A stretch of DNA of 64,000 bases from Sipunculus nudus (taxonomy: Eukaryota; Annelida; Sipuncula; Golfingiida; Sipunculidae). The stretch is from contig CM049311.1 of assembly GCA_026874595.1 (NCBI GenBank), positions 73,534,953-73,598,952 on the forward strand, read 5' to 3'. The notes below the pieces were generated by a model that had not been told where the DNA came from, did no database searches, and was given only the letters and a program-made list of their open reading frames with translations. Of this stretch, positions 20,954 to 62,892 are shown piece by piece (position 1 is the first letter of the stretch; the number at the start of each line of letters is the position of its first letter). The position numbers and the translations under genes are program-made.

Positions 20954-21984
20954 TAACAAGTGACCCATTGGTCATGACGCTCAGCTGACTGGGAAGAGAT
21001 TTGCAAAAGGAAATTTCATCATCTGAATGGTAGTATATAACCATTGAACTGAAGCATCAAACAGATTAACCAACAGGCTGAGATTGTGTCTGTATTAATA
21101 TATCTCAAGAATAGAGAAAAAATGCGTAAAATTAAAAAAAAAATACAGGTGGCTCCACCAGTCTGCAGAAACTAATAAAACACTTAATGGACAATATCCA
21201 TGCAAAGAAGCATGGTGGTCTCTGGATTAGTTGTTAAGATACTTAAGCTTTTGTATCAGATTTTCCATTATTCTGAGGGATACTTTGGAGTTCTATAGCT
21301 TGAAGGATATGGGTAACAGAGACCTAATTTCAGGTTTCCACAGACACTTTTCATGGACCTCTTTGCATGACAAGAATGAAGATTCTAGGTCCAGTTGTTA
21401 CAATTTGTACCAAGTTGACAAATAACCACATCTTTAAAGGTCTCAAAAATAGAGAAAATAATTCCTAAAAAAATTTAAAAAAAATAGAGGTGGCGCACCG
21501 AGTCTGCTGAAACTGATGGAACACGTCATGATCAATATGTATGCCAAAAATCATGAGTATCAGTGTTGTAGTTTTTGAGATACTGGAGTTTTTGTATCAA
21601 ATTTTTCATTATTCGGGGGGGGGGGGATACTTTGGAGCCATACAGCTTAATGTATATGGGTAACAGAGACCTTATTTCAGGTTTCCATGGAGATTTTTCA
21701 TGAGTCTCCCTGTGTGTAAAGAATGAAGAATCTAGGTCCAGTTGTTATGATTTGTGCCCTATTAACAGATGTTCATATCTTTAAGGTCTCAAAAATAGAG
21801 AAAAAAATTCGAAAAAAGCCCGAACAAATACATGTGGTGCCATCAGGCTACAGAAACTGATGAAACACTCCGTAACCAATATCCATACAAACAATTATGG
21901 TGTTCTCTGCATTAGTTGTTCAGATATTTCAGCTTTTGTATCAATTTTTTATTATTCTGAGCTGTACTTTTTAGTGCCATATAG
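20954..21984 (+). mobile_element. Hairpin tandem-repeat element family B, 3' truncated copy
   Basis: Begins with the same AACAAGTGACCCAT.GGTCA and GCTCAGCTGACTGGGAAGAG as the complete copy at 61353. It carries three units (period about 341-345 bp) marked by GGTGGCTCCACC at 21148 and GGTGGCGCACC at 21489. It stops at about 21984, where Penelope sequence begins. Its GTCC-rich 3' end is missing. Confidence 0.75.
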
Positions 21985-22411
21985 ACAGCCCCAGAACTGC
22001 CCCCTCGACGGCCACTGCCTTACTGAATGTGTTGTCTACAAGGCTACTGTCTCCGCCTCCAGCAAACCTGCACGCCATTATTACGGACTGACCGAAGGGC
22101 CATTCAAAACCCGTTTTAACGCGCACTCCCGGTCATTCCGTTCTGAAAGCTGCAGAAGAGAAACAGAACTGTCCAAATATATCTGGGATCTCAAAGACAA
22201 GAATCTTGATTACGAGGTCAAATGGAGCATCGCACAACGTGCAGCTCCATATAAATGTGGCACACGGCGGTGTGATGTCTGCCTTCCAGAGAAAATGGTG
22301 ATCGCCACTGCTGATCCGACCACAATGTTAAATAAACGAGCAGAACTCGTATCCACCTGCCGCCATCGGGCAAAGTTCCGATACGACAAGGTTTCTCATA
22401 CTCCCACTTGA
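21985..22411 (+). pseudogene. GIY-YIG endonuclease domain of Penelope-like element
   Basis: An open frame starting upstream at 21860 enters the domain at about 21985: NCPLDGHCLTECVVYKATV (a Cys-containing GIY-YIG entry), YYGLTEGPFKTRFNAH (the second YIG-like strand with the catalytic Arg), ELSKYIWDLK, then CGTRRCDVCLPEK and ELVSTCRHRAKFRY. This order and the paired Cys motifs are typical of the C-terminal endonuclease of EN+ Penelope-like retroelements, which nicks DNA for target-primed reverse transcription. The first 40-odd codons belong to the neighbouring repeat, so the open frame is a fusion by accident. No disabling mutation is seen within the domain, but without the reverse transcriptase the copy cannot move itself. 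Confidence 0.85.
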
Positions 22412-22871
22412 GACAGCCGAAACCCCTGAAACACGCGTGAGAGGCCCTTGGGCCCCCTTTTTTTTTTTTTTTTTTTTGGGCCCTGTATGGTGCCCTCTCT
22501 CTCTCTCCTACCCTTTTCGCCAACCATCCATAATCACAGGAAGCTAGGTCAAGGGCACTTGGCCAGTGACTTAGAACATGTAAACAGACTACAAGGGAAC
22601 CATCTGGACTCTGCATTTTTTACAATGCCAGTAAGTCGGACCACAAAATTATACAACAAGTTGTGCTATACCAAATAATGCTATTGAGCATTCCGACTAT
22701 CAATACCGTAACCGGAGCTGTCACGTTTTTAATATCATTACGTCATATTATTCAGTAATATGTGTGTGACCCACTCTTTGTTTAATGTTTAATATGTTTC
22801 TCCCTTACTGATACCGGTTGCTTAGTATATTAAGATACTTCATTTCTGTTTCTGTTATTGCAGGTTCAAAT

Positions 22872-22940
22872 ACATGTGGCCTGATGATTGTCGCATTTAT
22901 CATAAATGCAACATGAAACCTCAGGTAGCCATAAACATGT
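22872..22940 (+). ncRNA. Type I hammerhead ribozyme (Penelope-associated)
   Basis: Core CTGATGA at 22881-22887 and GAAAC at 22915-22919. Stem II is TGTCGCATTT with AAATGCAACA, ten positions with one C-A mismatch and loop ATCAT; a T-T pair lies at its base. Stem III is ACC/GGT with loop TCA. The predicted cleavage site is after A22927 (GTA). Stem I is TGGC (22877-22880) with GCCA (22928-22931), then internal loop TAAA, then ACATG (22872-22876) with CATGT (22936-22940). Short stem III and a looped stem I match hammerheads described in Penelope-like elements and retrozymes. It lies downstream of a GIY-YIG domain on the same strand. Confidence 0.82.
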
Positions 22941-22957
22941 AAAGCCACTCGAACCCA

Positions 22958-22961
<4 letters not shown>

Positions 22962-23017
<56 letters not shown>
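22962..23017. repeat. (TA)n microsatellite after Penelope 3' end
   Basis: About 56 bp of TA repeat starting some 20 bp after the hammerhead motif. Confidence 0.95.
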
Positions 23018-48706: not shown

Positions 48707-49740
48707 TACAGACTATACAGAGACGACTGTCTCGTCGCATGCCACTTACAATTAAGACAAACCGAGGGGGCTAAAAAGAAAATTTGCCAGATATTTAACA
48801 AGCTTGGCCTAAAAATTACAATCGAAGCCAACAAAAAAATAGATCTTTTGAACTTTTGACCTGAATAAAGCAGAATATATAAACCTTTCATGAAACCGAA
48901 CAATACCCCAATATACACCCACAAAGACAGTAACCATCCCCGACCCATAATAAGAAATATACCTAAAAGCATAACAAAAAGGTTGTCGAACATCTCCCAA
49001 AATGAAAATGTTTTCAACAAGGCTGCCCCACCATATCAGGAGGTATTCGCAACAATGGATGCAATTTTAAACTCAAGTACAACCGCTCACAACAATCCAG
49101 CACTGACGGAAAGAAGAGAAACAGAAGGAGGAACATAACGTGGTTCAATCCCCCATACAGCGCCAACGGGAAAGCGAACATAGGAAAAAAGTTCCTACAG
49201 CTCCTTGACAAATGTTTCCTCCTGACCACAGTTAACACAAAATCCTGAACCGAAACACCGTAAAAGCAGATATTGTTGCATGCCTAACATATAGCAGGTC
49301 ATTTCAGCACACACAAAAGGGCGACTCAACAATGACAGGATTATAGAAACGAAAACAGAAAGCATAAACAAACACTGCAACTGTAAAAACCCGAAAGAAT
49401 GTCCAATAAAAGTAGGATGCCTCACTCAAAGCATAATTAACCAGGCAACAATTACAAGACAAGACAACAAAAAAGTGGAAACATATCGGATTGACAGAAA
49501 ACGTATTTAAAACGAAATACTATGGACACATCAGCAGTTTGAGGAATGAAAAATACAGAAATAGTACAACACTAAGCCAGTACGTGTGGACTCTGGAGAA
49601 AAAAAAAACATACCCCATTCGTTAAAATAGTAAATCATGGCTAAATGTAGAGCTTATTCCAACACGTCCACTAACGTCTACTAACAGTAGAATGAGCTGA
49701 CATCGTCATGCAAACATAGAACTAAATACCTTCTTTTAAC
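48707..49740 (+). pseudogene. Penelope-like RT/GIY-YIG protein, broken
   Basis: Frames in order: LYRDDCLVA (RT YxDD-type catalytic box), KKKICQIFNKLGLKITIEAN, KPNNTPIYTHKDSNHPRPII, NIPKSITKRLSNISQNENVF, NKAAPPYQE (thumb and linker), ITWFNPPYSANGKANIGKKF, then CNCKNPKECPIKVGCLTQSI (Cys-rich GIY-YIG entry), YGHISSLRNEKYRNSTTLSQ, YVW, and finally IMAKCRAYSN and NELTSSCKHRTKYLL. Many stops and frameshifts and a deletion of the second Cys pair region near 49675-49690 make it non-functional. A different subfamily from the copy at 21985, judging by residue differences. Confidence 0.85.
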
Positions 49741-50334
49741 CTTAAAGTATTTTAAAACGACAATAATAAAGTTAAATATGCAGTCTCAAAAACCCAGCCG
49801 ATCTATTGAGGAACAACCAATTGGACTACTAATCCACTGATCCCCAGACCGAACCAACACCTGGGGCTTTGATTAACTTTAAGCAAACTAACAGACCTTT
49901 GAGCGCTTCATAATCGTCCTTATACAGTACAATAAGCCAGGCACCCAGTAACCCCAATTCACAACATAACAAAAACTCTTACATACATGCCTTACCGAAC
50001 CTAGTAACCCAAGATTAATTCTACCTATTATGACAACCTTAAATAATTTAAAACCGACAATAATAAAGCTAAATATGCAGTCTCAAAACCCAGCCGATCT
50101 ATGGAGGAACAACCAATTGGACTACTAATCCACTGATCCCCAGACCGAACCAACACCTGGGGCTTTGATTAACTTTAAGCAAACCAACAGTTCCTTGAGC
50201 GCTTCATAACAGTCCTTATACAGTACAAAATGCCAGGTACCCAGTTACCCCAATTCACCAGCATAACATAAACTCTTAAATACATGCGTCACCGAACCTA
50301 GTAACCCAAGATTAATCCTACCTATTATGACAAA
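49739..50334. repeat. 296-bp tandem duplication in Penelope 3' UTR
   Basis: Unit 1 (49739-50034) and unit 2 (50035-about 50330) share long identical stretches, for example CAGCCGATCTAT.GAGGAAC and ACTACTAATCCACTGATCCC, with a few percent differences. The duplicated part lies between the end of the coding relic and the ribozyme. Confidence 0.88.
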
Positions 50335-50360
50335 CTTCACCCACGCATCTGATCACTCTA

Positions 50361-50424
50361 GCTTGTACCTGAAGAGAGAGCCGGCTTGACTGCTGCTCCC
50401 ACGAAACAGATCTGTCGCACAAAC
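50361..50424 (+). ncRNA. Hammerhead ribozyme, partly decayed (Penelope-associated)
   Basis: Core CTGAAGA (50369-50375, a CTGANGA match) and GAAAC (50403-50407). Stem III is ACAG/CTGT with loop AT, followed by C50416, so the cleavage triplet is GTC with the cut after C50416. Stem I pairs GCTTGTAC (50361-50368) with GCACAAAC (50417-50424) at six of eight positions. Stem II is imperfect: GAGAGC pairs with GCTGCTC with one bulge, leaving CCAC unpaired before GAAAC. The core is intact but stem II decay may reduce activity. It sits at the expected 3' position of the Penelope relic. Confidence 0.68.
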
Positions 50425-50530
50425 TGATGAAGTCAAACTAACCGTGCATGAATTATTTATAAACGCTCCCATATGGTAGAGCACTATCACCGCGTTGTAT
50501 TGAATAAATGTTATATGAACAATATAAATC

Positions 50531-50533
50531 ATA

Positions 50534-50572
<39 letters not shown>

Positions 50573-50604
50573 ATATATATATATCTATATATATAGATAT
50601 ATAT
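50531..50604. repeat. (TA)n microsatellite with TCTA steps
   Basis: TA repeat interrupted by two TCTA steps and one TAGA, so the right half is partly self-complementary. Confidence 0.95.
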
Positions 50605-56200: not shown

Positions 56201-57889
56201 GATGATGAATAATAAATGATCTCTTTCAAGGTTCCTGGTTTACCAGTCCTAGACTGAGGGAAGTCATTCTCTTAATTCCCTTCAAAAGCCTGATGAGATA
56301 AATAAAGTCGAAACCAGTCTTGTAAGAAGATAACTTTAAGGGCATGGAATAATCATTCACAGACATGCGAGGCCGATCAGACCACATGTTATAATGTGGA
56401 CGGAACCTTCAGTAAGTCGTTATTACTCCCAATTACTTAAAATCCTCTGTTTGTGCGGATCTCGAATAATACTTGATGAACACGAGGGACTGTTGCATTC
56501 AGATAACATTGCTTATACATGATCTGGTCTAAATTAAGGTAGTTTTCTTGTTAACATTGGCATTTAAATCAGGCTGACAAAGGCTACTAAGAGCTATAAC
56601 AGCACACATTAAGTGACAGCAGCGCAAAGTTGGTATTTCATATTTTACCGACCCTATCACAAGAAAAAGCCTGCGTTCTTAGTAAGTTTCTTGAATAATT
56701 AATTCTCAAGGTATAAATATTAACAAATTAATGGTGAAATCCAATTAAGCCCCAACCGAGTGCCCACAGCTAATGAGTGCAAATGATGCATAGAACTCTT
56801 ACAGAGACTTGTTTGTCCCTGCACCAGGCGTCAGAAAGTCAGCCGTGATGTAGGCCAAATAGATTCCTGTTCTGACGTCTGGGGACAAAATGAAAACTGA
56901 CATACAAGCAGCCCAATATGACTTCCCCAACTCTTACAGGCGAAGTGTGTGGTGTTAGAAGTATATACTTAAAACGGCTGAGAGGATTGTGACCTGGAGA
57001 TATGCAATTACAAAGCCATATTGAATAACAATGTTACTAAGTGACTAAAGCAATTCTTTTACAAAAAAAAGTTTATTAATAATTCATGCCATTTTTACAT
57101 TACCATATCTTCTCCGACAGAGAAAATACAAACAAATAATAAATAAATGCCTTCTACAACGTTAGACAAAACAAACGAGTTATCAAAGGTTATTATTGGT
57201 ATCGTTCTTTTAAATATAGTGGTGTCCATATAACATTGAATAGATACGTACATGTTTTTTCGAATATTAATATTTTCGAAAAATTAAAGATAATTAAAAA
57301 ATAAATTTAGAAATTTTTGTTAGTCGCAGTTGGAATATTTTTCTAATTTTGTAATTGTACCCTTTTTGCCAACTTATAGTCTCACTTATGTATTCATGTT
57401 TTACATGAATGGGATGATTTGGGACTCTTATATTTGTCTTGACAAGTATGTTGTTAAAAATTGTGAATTAATAAAAAGTATATTGAATATTCCTTTTCTG
57501 TGAGAAAAGTATATTTTAAGAGACTTTAACATTTATTTATTGTTTATATAGGAATATCTGAATTATTTTTTTCAATCCCTCTGTAACCTGCGCATATTAT
57601 AATATTCAAATAGGTAAATTAATAACTATTATTTGAAGCTCACTTTATGATCTGAAAGTACCATTTTCTTAATTTCCATCCCTTACGAATATAAAATGAC
57701 AAGCATTTATTCATAAATATAATTTTTCTTATGACCTCATAATGTGAATTCAGTTCGTCCACTGCAGATGAAAATTCTTGTCTTTTTTTTCATTTATTAT
57801 ATCCCGATATCTCTTAACACAGCGTGCTTTATCATATCAACCAAGCGACTTTTTTTAAAATATTATTCTGCGTCACTTTCTTCTTTGTT

Positions 57890-58860: not shown

Positions 58861-61352
58861 TTTCCTATAATTGAATATATTTTTTACTAAGTGTCATCAT
58901 TTCTGAAAAGAGTGGTATCCTGGCTTCATCTGATTTAATATAAACTCTTAAAGATTTTTTTTTATATTTCTTTTAGCAATATCCTAATTTTTGGACCAAT
59001 GGTATAAGCAGTATTCTTCATGTATTCTCATGAAATCTTGTTAATTTCTGTTTGAATATACACAATCATTTGTCAAGTACACAGGTAAACCAGGGGTAAC
59101 CAATTGTTTCTGTTGATTTCCCACAGAAGCTCTAAATATTCGGTTACGTAAATATCCAAGTTGGCTCGTTGGAAAATATCATCAATAAAACTTGCCTCTA
59201 TTTCTGATAAATTGAACAAAAATCCCGAGCTTTTTGTGAATGCCTCTTTGCTGAGTGCACACTAGCGTCCTCTCTGCGGTACTTAAGCAAATCTATTCTC
59301 GTAGGTTGAACATAAAGTAAGGTCATTTTTTGATAGGAGACATTTTATTATCCTTTTCCTCATATGTGTTGTGGTGGTTTAAATAGAAGAATTGATATTT
59401 ATTAAAAAAAAGTCTCTAAAAGTTATTTGTAGAAGTATACATAGCCGGTTGCTGCTCAATATTCTCTCATTTCGAATATTTCATATAAAATTAATTGTTT
59501 GAGATTGATGGATCTAATGATTTTATGGTTTGTTTCCTCTACCCCTTAATTGCATTTTATGCAGCCGGGGGCTTAACTTATTACGTTTAACTTATATTAA
59601 TGCTGGTTTATGCCAGAAAGTGATGGTCTGCAGATAAAAGTGATAACACTTTAAAGTAATTAATTCAACTGAAAGGCACATTATCAAAGACATAAACAGA
59701 TATGGACTTTCATGCAATACATAATTAATAACTTATGTCTAATCAAACACTGCCGTTTCCTTCATGTTGAAAACCGGAGTTTCGCCTTTTTACCTCTATT
59801 AACGTACTTATGAAGCTACAAGTGACATTTTTGGGTGGTTTTACAGAATTAATTATATTCGTATATGACGAGGGGTATAATTATTGGCTTTATCTTTGGG
59901 TTTACGAATAAATGTGGCATCTCTCCTAAGCCGTTCATGTGAGAGGGCTGATCCGAGAAGGTTACATCTGCCAATGCATTGAAGTCAGAAGAAAGGCTTT
60001 ATCTTGGAATGGAATATTTCGAATGGACGATAAAACATTATACTTGCCGAATAAAAACGTAACGACTACAGGAAAATTTTCTTTTTAATTTGTTTATGTA
60101 CTAAGCCCATTTTATGATGGGAAAAAAATCCCACTTATCAGTTGTGCTTGTCTGACTCTTAATTTTATGCTACATTTACTGCTAAAGCCGACAAATACGA
60201 CAAAGATCTGGATAAAATATAGCCGTTAGAGTCATATGATAACATTTCTGAAAATGTTCAGGAAAGGTCATCATGTAAAAGGAATTTCCTTGCAATTTTT
60301 TTTGCCCCTACCCCTAAATTACGTTTTTAAGCACGAAAGGGCTTACCCGGAATTGTAGTTTTCACGTAATATTTACCAGGAATTAATGTGCAACAGATCA
60401 GGTGATACCATTTTATAATCAATGAAACAAACCCGACAGGCATTAAATTTTCGAAAGACGAAGATTTGCTTCCAATACACGTTGCAATACACGTGTATTA
60501 TTAATGTTGGAATAACTTACTGTCGTATACTACAATGGTTGACCACACGGAGAATATAAACCACGGAGCATAAGGACCAAGGTAACATATATTATATACT
60601 TGTAAAAGATAATATCAACGTTTAGGCTAGGGGCGGGATAATTCAGATTCTGGGTTTATGGCGTTTAAGGGCCCCATCTGGCCGAGGTAAGAAATAGCAT
60701 ATTGATTAGCCGGGTAATCCTTGAACCGGCACGGGCGTTAATAACAAGTACGTTGTCAGCAAATCATTTTGTCATTTTGAATTCACCCTTTTTCAATTTT
60801 ATAAACTTAAAAAGTAAAAAAGGAGTTTTAGTTTCTCATGTGTCTAAAACATTGTACCCTGGAGTTTAAAGATTTTAATTAAGTTGAAGGTTCTTTTCAA
60901 ATTACAACAAACAAAAAAGCTTTTTTGTCAATAATTTTTTATAATATCGTCTTACTTAAGAACAAACTTCATAACCTTCTCAGGGGAGGATCCAGTATTT
61001 AAGAAATGGTTGCTACGGCCTGGATCCTTTCAGGGATCGGAGATTCATCTGTAAACGAAAATAAAATGAGCATGATCATTAACAGTAATACAAAGTTAAA
61101 AAAATATATAAAACGTGGTAATTACAGCCTGTTAATCACAGCCTGGTAATTCTACACCTACCGAAGTTCACACATTTTTCGGGAAACTTTTCGAATCGAA
61201 AAACCACAAAAACCGCCTCTTGTAGAGTACATTTAATTAAAACCATTGTGTGAGCTGCAATAATATCAAGCTACTTTTACCGTTATTTCCTTTCTGTGCA
61301 ATGTTGGCAGAAATTATATATTCTACATTAGAATTAAGATTAAACTGATATA

Positions 61353-62892
61353 TAACAAGTGACCCATGGGTCATGACGCTCAGCTGACTGGGAAGAGATT
61401 CGCAAAAGGATATTTTGTCATCTTAATGGTAGTATATACCCATTCAACTGAAACTTCAAACAGATGAACCAACAGGCCAAGATTGTGTCTGTATTTATAT
61501 TTCTCAAAAGTAGATAAAAAATGCGTAAACTTAAAAAAAAATACAGGTGGCTCCACCAGTCTGCAGAAACTAATAAAAACACTTAATGGTCAATATTCAT
61601 GCAAAGAATCATGGTGATCTCTTCATTAGTTGTTCAGATACATAAATTTTCCATTATCCTGAGGGATACTTCGGAGTCCTATAGCTTGAAGGATATGGGT
61701 AACAGAGACCTAATTCAGGTTTCCACAGACACTTTCCATGGGCCTCCTTGTATGACAAGAATGAAAATTCTAGGTCAAGTCGTTACGATTTGTACCCTGT
61801 TGACAGATAACTACATCCTTAAAGGTCTCAAAAATATAGAAAAAAATTGTAAAAATTTGAAAAAATACAGGTGGCTTCACCAGCCTGTAGAAACTAATAA
61901 AAACACTTAATGGTCAATATTCATGCAAAGAATCATGGGGATCTCTTCATTAGTTGTTCAGATACTCAAATTTTCCATTATTCTGGGGGGTAATTGGAAG
62001 CCCCACAGCTCAAAGGATATGTGTAACAGAGACCTTATTTCAGGTTTCCATGAAGAATTTTCATAGGTCTCTCACTGTGAAGAATGAGGATTCTAGGTCC
62101 AGTCTTTACAATACAATTTGTGCCCTGTTAACAGATGTTCATATTTTTAAAGGTCTCAAAAATAGAGAAAATAATTTGTAAAAAAATCGAAAAATACAGG
62201 TGACGCCACCAGTCTACAGAAACTGATGAAACATCTCATGATCATTATATATGTATGCCAAAAATCCTGACCATCAGTGATGTAGTTTATGAGATATTGA
62301 AGTTTTTGTACGAAATTTTTTACTATTCTTGGGGTACTTTGGGCCCCATAGCTCAAAGGATAAAGGTAACAGAGACCTAAATTCTAGTTTTCATGGAGAC
62401 TTTCCATAGGTCTCTCAGTGTGTCAAGAATGGAAGATTCTAGGTCCAGTCTTTACGATTTGTGCCCTGTTAACAGATGTTCACATTTTTAAAGGTCTCAA
62501 AATTAGAAAAAAAAATTTGCAAAAAAATCGAAAAATACAGGTGGCGCCACCAGTCTGCAGGTGATGAAATATCTCATGATGAATATGTATGCCAAAAATC
62601 ATGACCATCAGTGATGTAGTTAATGAGATATTTAAGTTTTTGTATGAATTTTTTTACTATTTTTTTTTGGGGGGGGGGGTAATTTGGGGACTCATAGCTC
62701 GAAGGATATGGGTAACAGAGACCTTATTTCTGGTTTTTCAAGGACTCTCAGAATGTCAAGTTACAAGATTCTAGGTCCAGCAGTTACGATTTGTGCCCTG
62801 TTAACGGACAAACAGACGGACAGCTGGACAGACGGACGACGGACAAAGACTGATCACTATAGCTGAGATGACTTACAGTCAGCTGAGCTAAA
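61353..62892 (+). mobile_element. Complete hairpin tandem-repeat element, family B
   Basis: The 5' end has the palindrome TGACCCATGGGTCA (61360-61373) and GCTCAGCTGACTG (61378-61390). The 3' end has its reverse complement CAGTCAGCTGAGC (62876-62888), giving a 13-bp perfect subterminal inverted repeat. Four units with periods 324, 329 and 341 bp are marked by GGTGGCTCCACC (61546), GGTGGCTTCACC (61870), GGTGACGCCACC (62199) and GGTGGCGCCACC (62540). GGAC-type simple repeats precede a 14-bp terminal hairpin (62860-62873 with 62877-62890, two mismatches). Architecture fits non-autonomous Helentron-like (DINE/HINE-type) elements, by inference. Confidence 0.8.

Follow-up and report, generated by a model that had tools for sequence, protein, structure and literature searches.

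A probable type I hammerhead ribozyme in the 3′ terminal region of a Penelope-like element of Sipunculus nudus and related motifs in its sister families

The window analyzed here is a 64-kb stretch of DNA from Sipunculus nudus. On its forward strand, the 3′ part of an element of a family designated F1 is followed by a TA microsatellite, and a hammerhead motif is located between the coding remnant and the microsatellite. The parts of the element are arranged as follows.

21983–22411, + strand: C-terminal GIY-YIG-like endonuclease domain and stop codon, remnant of the reverse transcriptase (RT)-endonuclease (EN) ORF of F1
22412–22871, + strand: 3′ UTR from the endonuclease stop codon to the ribozyme, common to copies L014, L019, L020, and L021
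22872–22940, + strand: motif of a type I hammerhead ribozyme, with cleavage predicted between 22927 and 22928
22881–22887, + strand: core CTGATGA (CUGAUGA), kept whole in 34 of 40 copies
22888–22914, + strand: stem-loop II with a U·U base, 10 pairs, one C·A mismatch, and a UCA loop
22915–22927, + strand: GAAA, stem III (ACC/GGU, loop UCA), and A17
22941–22962, + strand: element tail beyond the ribozyme, where copies end and pass into (TA)n
22963–23017, no strand assigned: (TA)27.5 microsatellite, presumed target of the insertion in view of the tandem repeat and the TA runs at the 5′ junctions of copies

All the hammerhead parts claimed in a first-pass annotation of this DNA are present, in order, at 22872–22940. 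Stem I comprises TGGC/GCCA and ACATG/CATGT, separated in the 3′ strand by a bulge of four bases. Stem II (22888–22914) consists, from base to tip, of a T·T pair, 3 bp, a C·A mismatch, 7 bp, and a TCA triloop; 10 of its 11 positions are paired, which is equalled by 0.07% of random 27-mers from the window. GAAA occupies 22915–22918, stem III pairs 22918–22920 with 22924–22926 around a 3-nt loop, and A17 is 22927. The cleavage triplet GUA is weaker than GUC. With a strict descriptor (at least 4 bp in stem I and at least 3 bp each in stems II and III), the motif is the sole match in the window. Second-order Markov sequence of 240 Mb, matched to the window in composition, gave eight such matches, corresponding to 0.004 per two-stranded window, and two (0.001 per window) when stem I was required to be at least 6 bp. 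The bare core alone is not significant, either as a tighter pattern (two matches in the window; 5 of 100 shuffles reach two) or as a looser one (13 matches versus 7.9 expected; 14 of 100 shuffles reach that number). The second match of the tighter pattern, at 56290, was rejected as a hammerhead, being without stem I.

We searched the genome assembly (1.43 Gb, 153 contigs) with window positions 22800–22970. F1 copies were found at 40 places at least (the best 40 of 83 candidates), and five of these scored places, including the window's own, are identical over all 171 bp. CTGATGA and GAAACCTCAGGTA occur at the right spacing at 31 places in the genome, and at none in the reversed control. The other 39 copies were read out, 20 with about 10 kb of context and 19 with 0.8 kb. 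The 20 copies read at length share a 3′ end composed of the motif, a tail of ~20 nt, and then (TA)n, and their 5′ truncation points vary. The window copy is truncated at about 21982, and L014, L019, L020, and L021 match the window sequence from 21982 onward. A TA run of at least 8 lies within 80 nt of the 5′ junction in 15 of 18 copies (the 20 without L014 and L021), compared with about 5% for random places, a figure that is slightly low because of skipped draws. From the common 3′ end, the differing 5′ ends, and the TA runs at the junctions, the picture read from these sequences is that of a retrotransposon that inserts into TA microsatellites and is truncated at its 5′ end. The window copy itself sits at the end of the first of two related ~347-bp tandem repeat arrays (21103–21961 and 61352–62808).

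In L014, a 568-codon frame has RT-like motifs upstream of the C-terminal domain known from the window; in L059, a 653-codon frame likewise has an RT-like part preceding that domain. The endonuclease domain of the window has five other F1 copies at 88–95% identity. FYPSI, YRDD (YRND in L059), and VYK..Y(Y/I)G-like motifs are found in one frame in each of L014, L058, and L059. We take ADK..N, FYPSI, YRDD, FLD..YRKP..SNHP, and VYK..YYG to be Penelope RT and GIY-YIG motifs, and the F1 protein is called Penelope-like from these motifs and from the insertion behavior. Pfam recognized neither the RT-like nor the GIY-YIG-like domain in the F1 and F2 frames, NCBIfam gave only a sub-threshold RT match in L059 (Drt3a, E 0.0016), no usable domain match came from the Pfam, NCBIfam, and PDB sequence searches, and peptide patterns of the endonuclease had no match in viral_contigs. 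The Penelope GIY-YIG domain placed by the first-pass annotation ~460 bp upstream on the same strand is present as a domain, but it has no Pfam GIY-YIG match and its name comes from its motifs.

L059 (C15:54545500-54549100) is a nearly full-length F1 copy whose ORF starts directly after (TA)n. This copy stops just before the ribozyme, at a TTGCAGG resembling a 3′ splice site, which counts against the ribozyme reading. In the window, a pyrimidine-rich stretch at 22840–22864 resembles an intron acceptor, ending in TTGCAG before a G just 5′ of the ribozyme. It may be part of an intron spanning a unit junction.

Conservation within F1 was counted in 40 aligned copies. GAAA is retained in all 40, and A17 and the preceding U in 39 each; T is found at 22914 in all copies and at 22888 in 38. 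Among core columns, 3 of 12 vary when the free position N7 is left out, versus 60 of 91 in the flanks (Fisher p 0.008), and 4 of 13 vary when N7 is counted (p 0.018). Mismatches affect 5 of 506 core letters and 139 of 2555 letters just upstream. In the other 56 motif columns, variability is not clearly below that of the flanks (35 vary, p 0.40). No covariation was found within F1 among 26 distinct rows, as is expected because dead copies decay freely. The cleavage-position A and the T·T base of stem II, regarded as unusual at the first pass, are indeed unusual, but they are features of the whole family rather than a peculiarity of one copy. The odd U·U pair is common to F1, F2, and a further family F1b. 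An axolotl hammerhead with tested activity is likewise reported to carry a U·U mismatch at its helix II base (PMC7229834).

The sister families were found by tblastn with the endonuclease domain. Among the best 150 of 2,686 candidate places, which were scored, six are F1, one has 61% identity, and 143 have 54–56% identity and constitute F2. The F2 unit in L058 has a clean hammerhead, ATTCAC-CUGAUGA-U-CGGG-loop-CCCG-U-GAA-ACA-loop-UGU-U-GUGAAU, in which the stems ATTCAC/GTGAAT, CGGG/CCCG, and ACA/TGT surround the same core as in F1. The F2 core with stem II occurs in 1,593 exact copies in the genome, and in none with the reversed control. In F2 stem II, only 2 of 82 mutants are compensated, nothing beyond neutral decay. 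In F1b (L060, 61% protein identity), the motif stands about as far before (TA)n as it does in F1, with one extra C before the core. A third type, F3, has its motif in L018, L063, and L025 and at 50363–50422 of the window, the first three being better preserved; the F3 motifs also stand before (TA)n, as does that of F1b. The F3 features in the window are as follows.

48713–49729, + strand: decayed RT-EN coding remnant of F3, from tblastn and endonuclease pieces
50363–50422, + strand: hammerhead-like motif of F3, with CUGAAGA at 50369, GAAA at 50403, ACAG/CUGU, and C17 at 50416
50522–50604, no strand assigned: AT repeat on the 3′ side of the F3 remnant

The stretch 48713–50604 is a second Penelope-like element in the window, decayed, from another family, and absent from the first-pass annotation. 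Its coding remnant has 32% identity to the F2 protein over 48713–49468 (tblastn, E 8e-26), with endonuclease pieces at 49482–49604 (E 9e-8) and, weakly, at 49694–49729 (E 0.7). Stems I and II of its motif are partly decayed, and the motif folds no better than shuffles. A 296-bp tandem repeat (two copies, 92%) lies at 49738–50337, between the coding remnant and the ribozyme-like motif; it was rejected as a retrozyme, being without any core match.

Comparison between families gives what is, in our view, the strongest evidence for a ribozyme rather than a look-alike. Changes on both sides of a pair that keep it paired are found at pairs 2, 3, and 4 of stem I, pairs 2, 3, and 4 of stem II, and pair 3 of stem III, with the motifs split by eye and with mismatches in F1, each F3 copy, and L060. 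The compensatory changes that the first-pass annotation had proposed to look for are missing among the close F1 copies but present between families. The arrangement that it described, with a type I hammerhead downstream of a GIY-YIG-like domain of Penelope type, recurs in the copies and in the related families.

The covariance search proposed at the first pass did not identify the motif: Rfam gave no hammerhead match to it at the gathering threshold or at E up to 10. This is a weak test here, because the clean F2 hammerhead was missed too. RF00163 had no match over the whole genome and none in 14 control genomes either, so that this search is uninformative. We weigh the Rfam miss against the hammerhead name, not against function. 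A covariance model built from F1 gives 58.6 bits to the F1 copy in L063 and finds F2 in L062 weakly (16.4 bits, E 0.2), misses the L058, L060, and F3 motifs, and gives 20.9 bits to the window's own reverse strand; it is too narrow for most sister motifs. The predicted minimum-energy fold of the window motif pairs CCUG with CAGG at −19.0 kcal/mol, versus −14.7 kcal/mol for the hammerhead, to whose core folding programs give no credit. For the F2, F1b, and L063 motifs, folding is not significantly better than for shuffled sequences (z −0.4 to −1.6); among them, stems I and II of a hammerhead are found in the best fold of the shorter F2 piece only.

The ends of F2 copies bear on the use of the motif. 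F2 copies read to the end have two recurrent 3′ ends, at about positions 745 and 808 of the L058 unit, both 3′ of the ribozyme. Because copies run unbroken through the cut site to the 3′ end beyond, the RNA that was reverse-transcribed was uncut at the ribozyme. L067 and L069 each contain two F2 ends head to head, one at each 3′ end point. The L067 pair lies between TA repeats, and the L069 pair is flanked by a 13–14-bp duplication, as read from its sequence. Such insertions are very short, with two 3′ ends that each bear a ribozyme placed head to head; a comparable pair of F3 ends is present in L063. On C1, which has 98 exact F2 motifs, neighbors within 5 kb are oriented minus-plus 10 times, plus-plus 5 times, minus-minus 3 times, and plus-minus never. 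Tandem or partial-tandem copies, head-to-head copies, and target-site duplication, which are Penelope-type features, are thus all found for F2. Tandem or head-to-head arrangement and target-site duplication were not seen for F1 itself. The two 3′ ends and the head-to-head pattern of F2 fit priming on both cut strands with RT starting at two internal sites. At the 5′ side, TATATA lies at most 12 nt before the cut-site letters at 13 distinct F2 loci (25 rows), four of which begin exactly there, one ambiguous; at a neighboring control anchor this is found at 8 distinct loci (19 rows), and five begin at one other point. These five shared starts are probably due to microhomology, and two of them are perhaps one duplicated copy. 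The cut site does not hold a convincing surplus of F2 5′ ends, and we base no conclusion on these counts.

Other explanations of the motif should be weighed against these observations. The stretch could be a conserved 3′-terminal RNA structure to which RT-EN binds for the initiation of reverse transcription; CCUGA would then pair with UCAGG, and the hammerhead would be incidental or vestigial. This structure is the predicted minimum-energy fold, and a binding role agrees with 3′ ends of copies just 3′ of the motif and with uncut templates. The fold, however, leaves GAAA unpaired and unexplained, though it is invariant in 40 of 40 copies, and in F2, F3, and F1b the letters after GAAA give no UCAGG whereas the hammerhead stems still form. 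We consider this explanation improbable. That the motif is a chance look-alike, carried and copied by an unrelated repeat, is more improbable still. The 4/3/3 descriptor would give chance matches across 1.4 Gb, and the Rfam search found nothing, but the expectation in a 64-kb window is low, and the same type of motif, with different stems, occupies the same place in several families.

Coding constraint is the remaining candidate for the cause of conservation, since a frame of 22 codons from the ATG at 22874 is open across the motif. Distinct substitutions in it are 8 silent and 37 changing, that is, 18% silent versus 15% by chance; a peptide over the motif was rejected because the substitutions are without coding constraint, and the chance left for a short coding ORF is very small. 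The stretch 22872–22940 is, with high probability and as judged from sequence comparison, a genuine type I hammerhead of the 3′ terminal region (pseudo-LTR and tail) of the F1 Penelope-like element. The RNA would self-cleave after A22927, possibly with the element's protein or as a dimer, ways reported for other Penelope hammerheads, and cleavage would cut multi-unit or read-through transcripts into element units. Since the template is uncut, cleavage, if any, would serve another step, such as transcript trimming or end definition.

F2 forms large arrays of head-to-tail coding units of ~2.92 kb, with the hammerhead at those junctions that were read and with open frames that reach about 770 codons. 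On C17 (42,719,119–42,871,602), 47 scored places stand at steps of about 2.92 kb or double, so that the array comprises about 52 units; its left end is a 5′-truncated unit, and its right end is composed of the ribozyme, the tail, and (TA)n. The run of frame lengths in this array repeats after about 38 kb, which points to an internal duplication by unequal exchange or to an assembly repeat. On C1 (55.95–55.97 Mb) and C12 (49.44–49.51 Mb), arrays stand head to head, with plus units after minus units. A non-coding tandem unit of ~300 bp with a hammerhead, as in a retrozyme, is represented neither by F2 nor by the 296-bp repeat. These arrays prompt a further suggestion, which is speculative and rather doubtful: the F2 hammerhead may cut multi-unit transcripts into unit-length, perhaps circular RNAs of ~2.9 kb coding for RT-EN. 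Such circles, or else concatemers, may then be reverse-transcribed from both nicked (TA)n strands, which would give head-to-head pairs of head-to-tail arrays. If true, Penelope-like elements would be akin to retrozymes but autonomous and protein-coding, and would generate their own satellite DNA.

Penelope-like elements are known to carry hammerheads (Cervera and De la Pena 2014, as described in PMC7761336, PMC6155905, and PMC11167929), and the present motif is an addition to these. The likenesses are that the hammerheads are of type I, lie in the terminal repeat or UTR of an element with RT and GIY-YIG, and occur in tandem or partial-tandem copies; AT-rich targets (also PMC3846280) and, in rotifer Penelope elements, head-to-head copies (PMC3846280) are also described. 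Contrarily, Penelope hammerheads are typically minimal and usually without helix III (PMC7761336, PMC6155905), whereas helix III here has 3 bp (4 in F3), stem II of F1 is long with a U·U base, and the targets are (TA)n microsatellites. For the Poseidon element PAc of Anolis carolinensis, in vitro work describes RT starting 3′ of the hammerhead at two nearby internal sites, cutting and extension of both DNA strands, unprocessed RNA as the main template, and hammerhead cleavage only with the protein (PMC11167929). The two RT start sites 3′ of the hammerhead, the use of both strands, and the uncut template resemble the pattern seen here. The PAc hammerhead overlaps the ORF start, whereas in the F1 copies about 460 nt separate the hammerhead from the stop codon before it, and in the F2 unit of L058 the cut site lies about 170 nt before the presumed next ATG.

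In the Terminons of bdelloid rotifers, a 3′-terminal hammerhead directly adjoins the simple repeat at the insertion place, as here, but the repeats are telomeric instead of (TA)n, and the endonuclease is described as dispensable for attachment at telomeres, whereas the ORF here carries a GIY-YIG-like domain (PMC6431247). Metazoan non-LTR retrozymes likewise have type I hammerheads in tandem arrays, but their units are non-coding and a few hundred bases long, in contrast to the coding F2 units of ~2.92 kb (PMC7229834). In a narrow search of titles and the starts of abstracts, we recognized no prior account of the F1, F2, F3, and F1b families.

A review calls the in vivo activity and the role of Penelope hammerheads a mystery (PMC7761336). 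In the Sipunculus nudus genome, at least three families with a hammerhead occur next to one another, together with young identical copies; the 3′ ends of copies mark the RT start relative to the cut site, and the arrays carry the ribozyme at the junctions read. Taken together, the families, copies, 3′ ends, and arrays make the role of the hammerhead directly testable in this genome.
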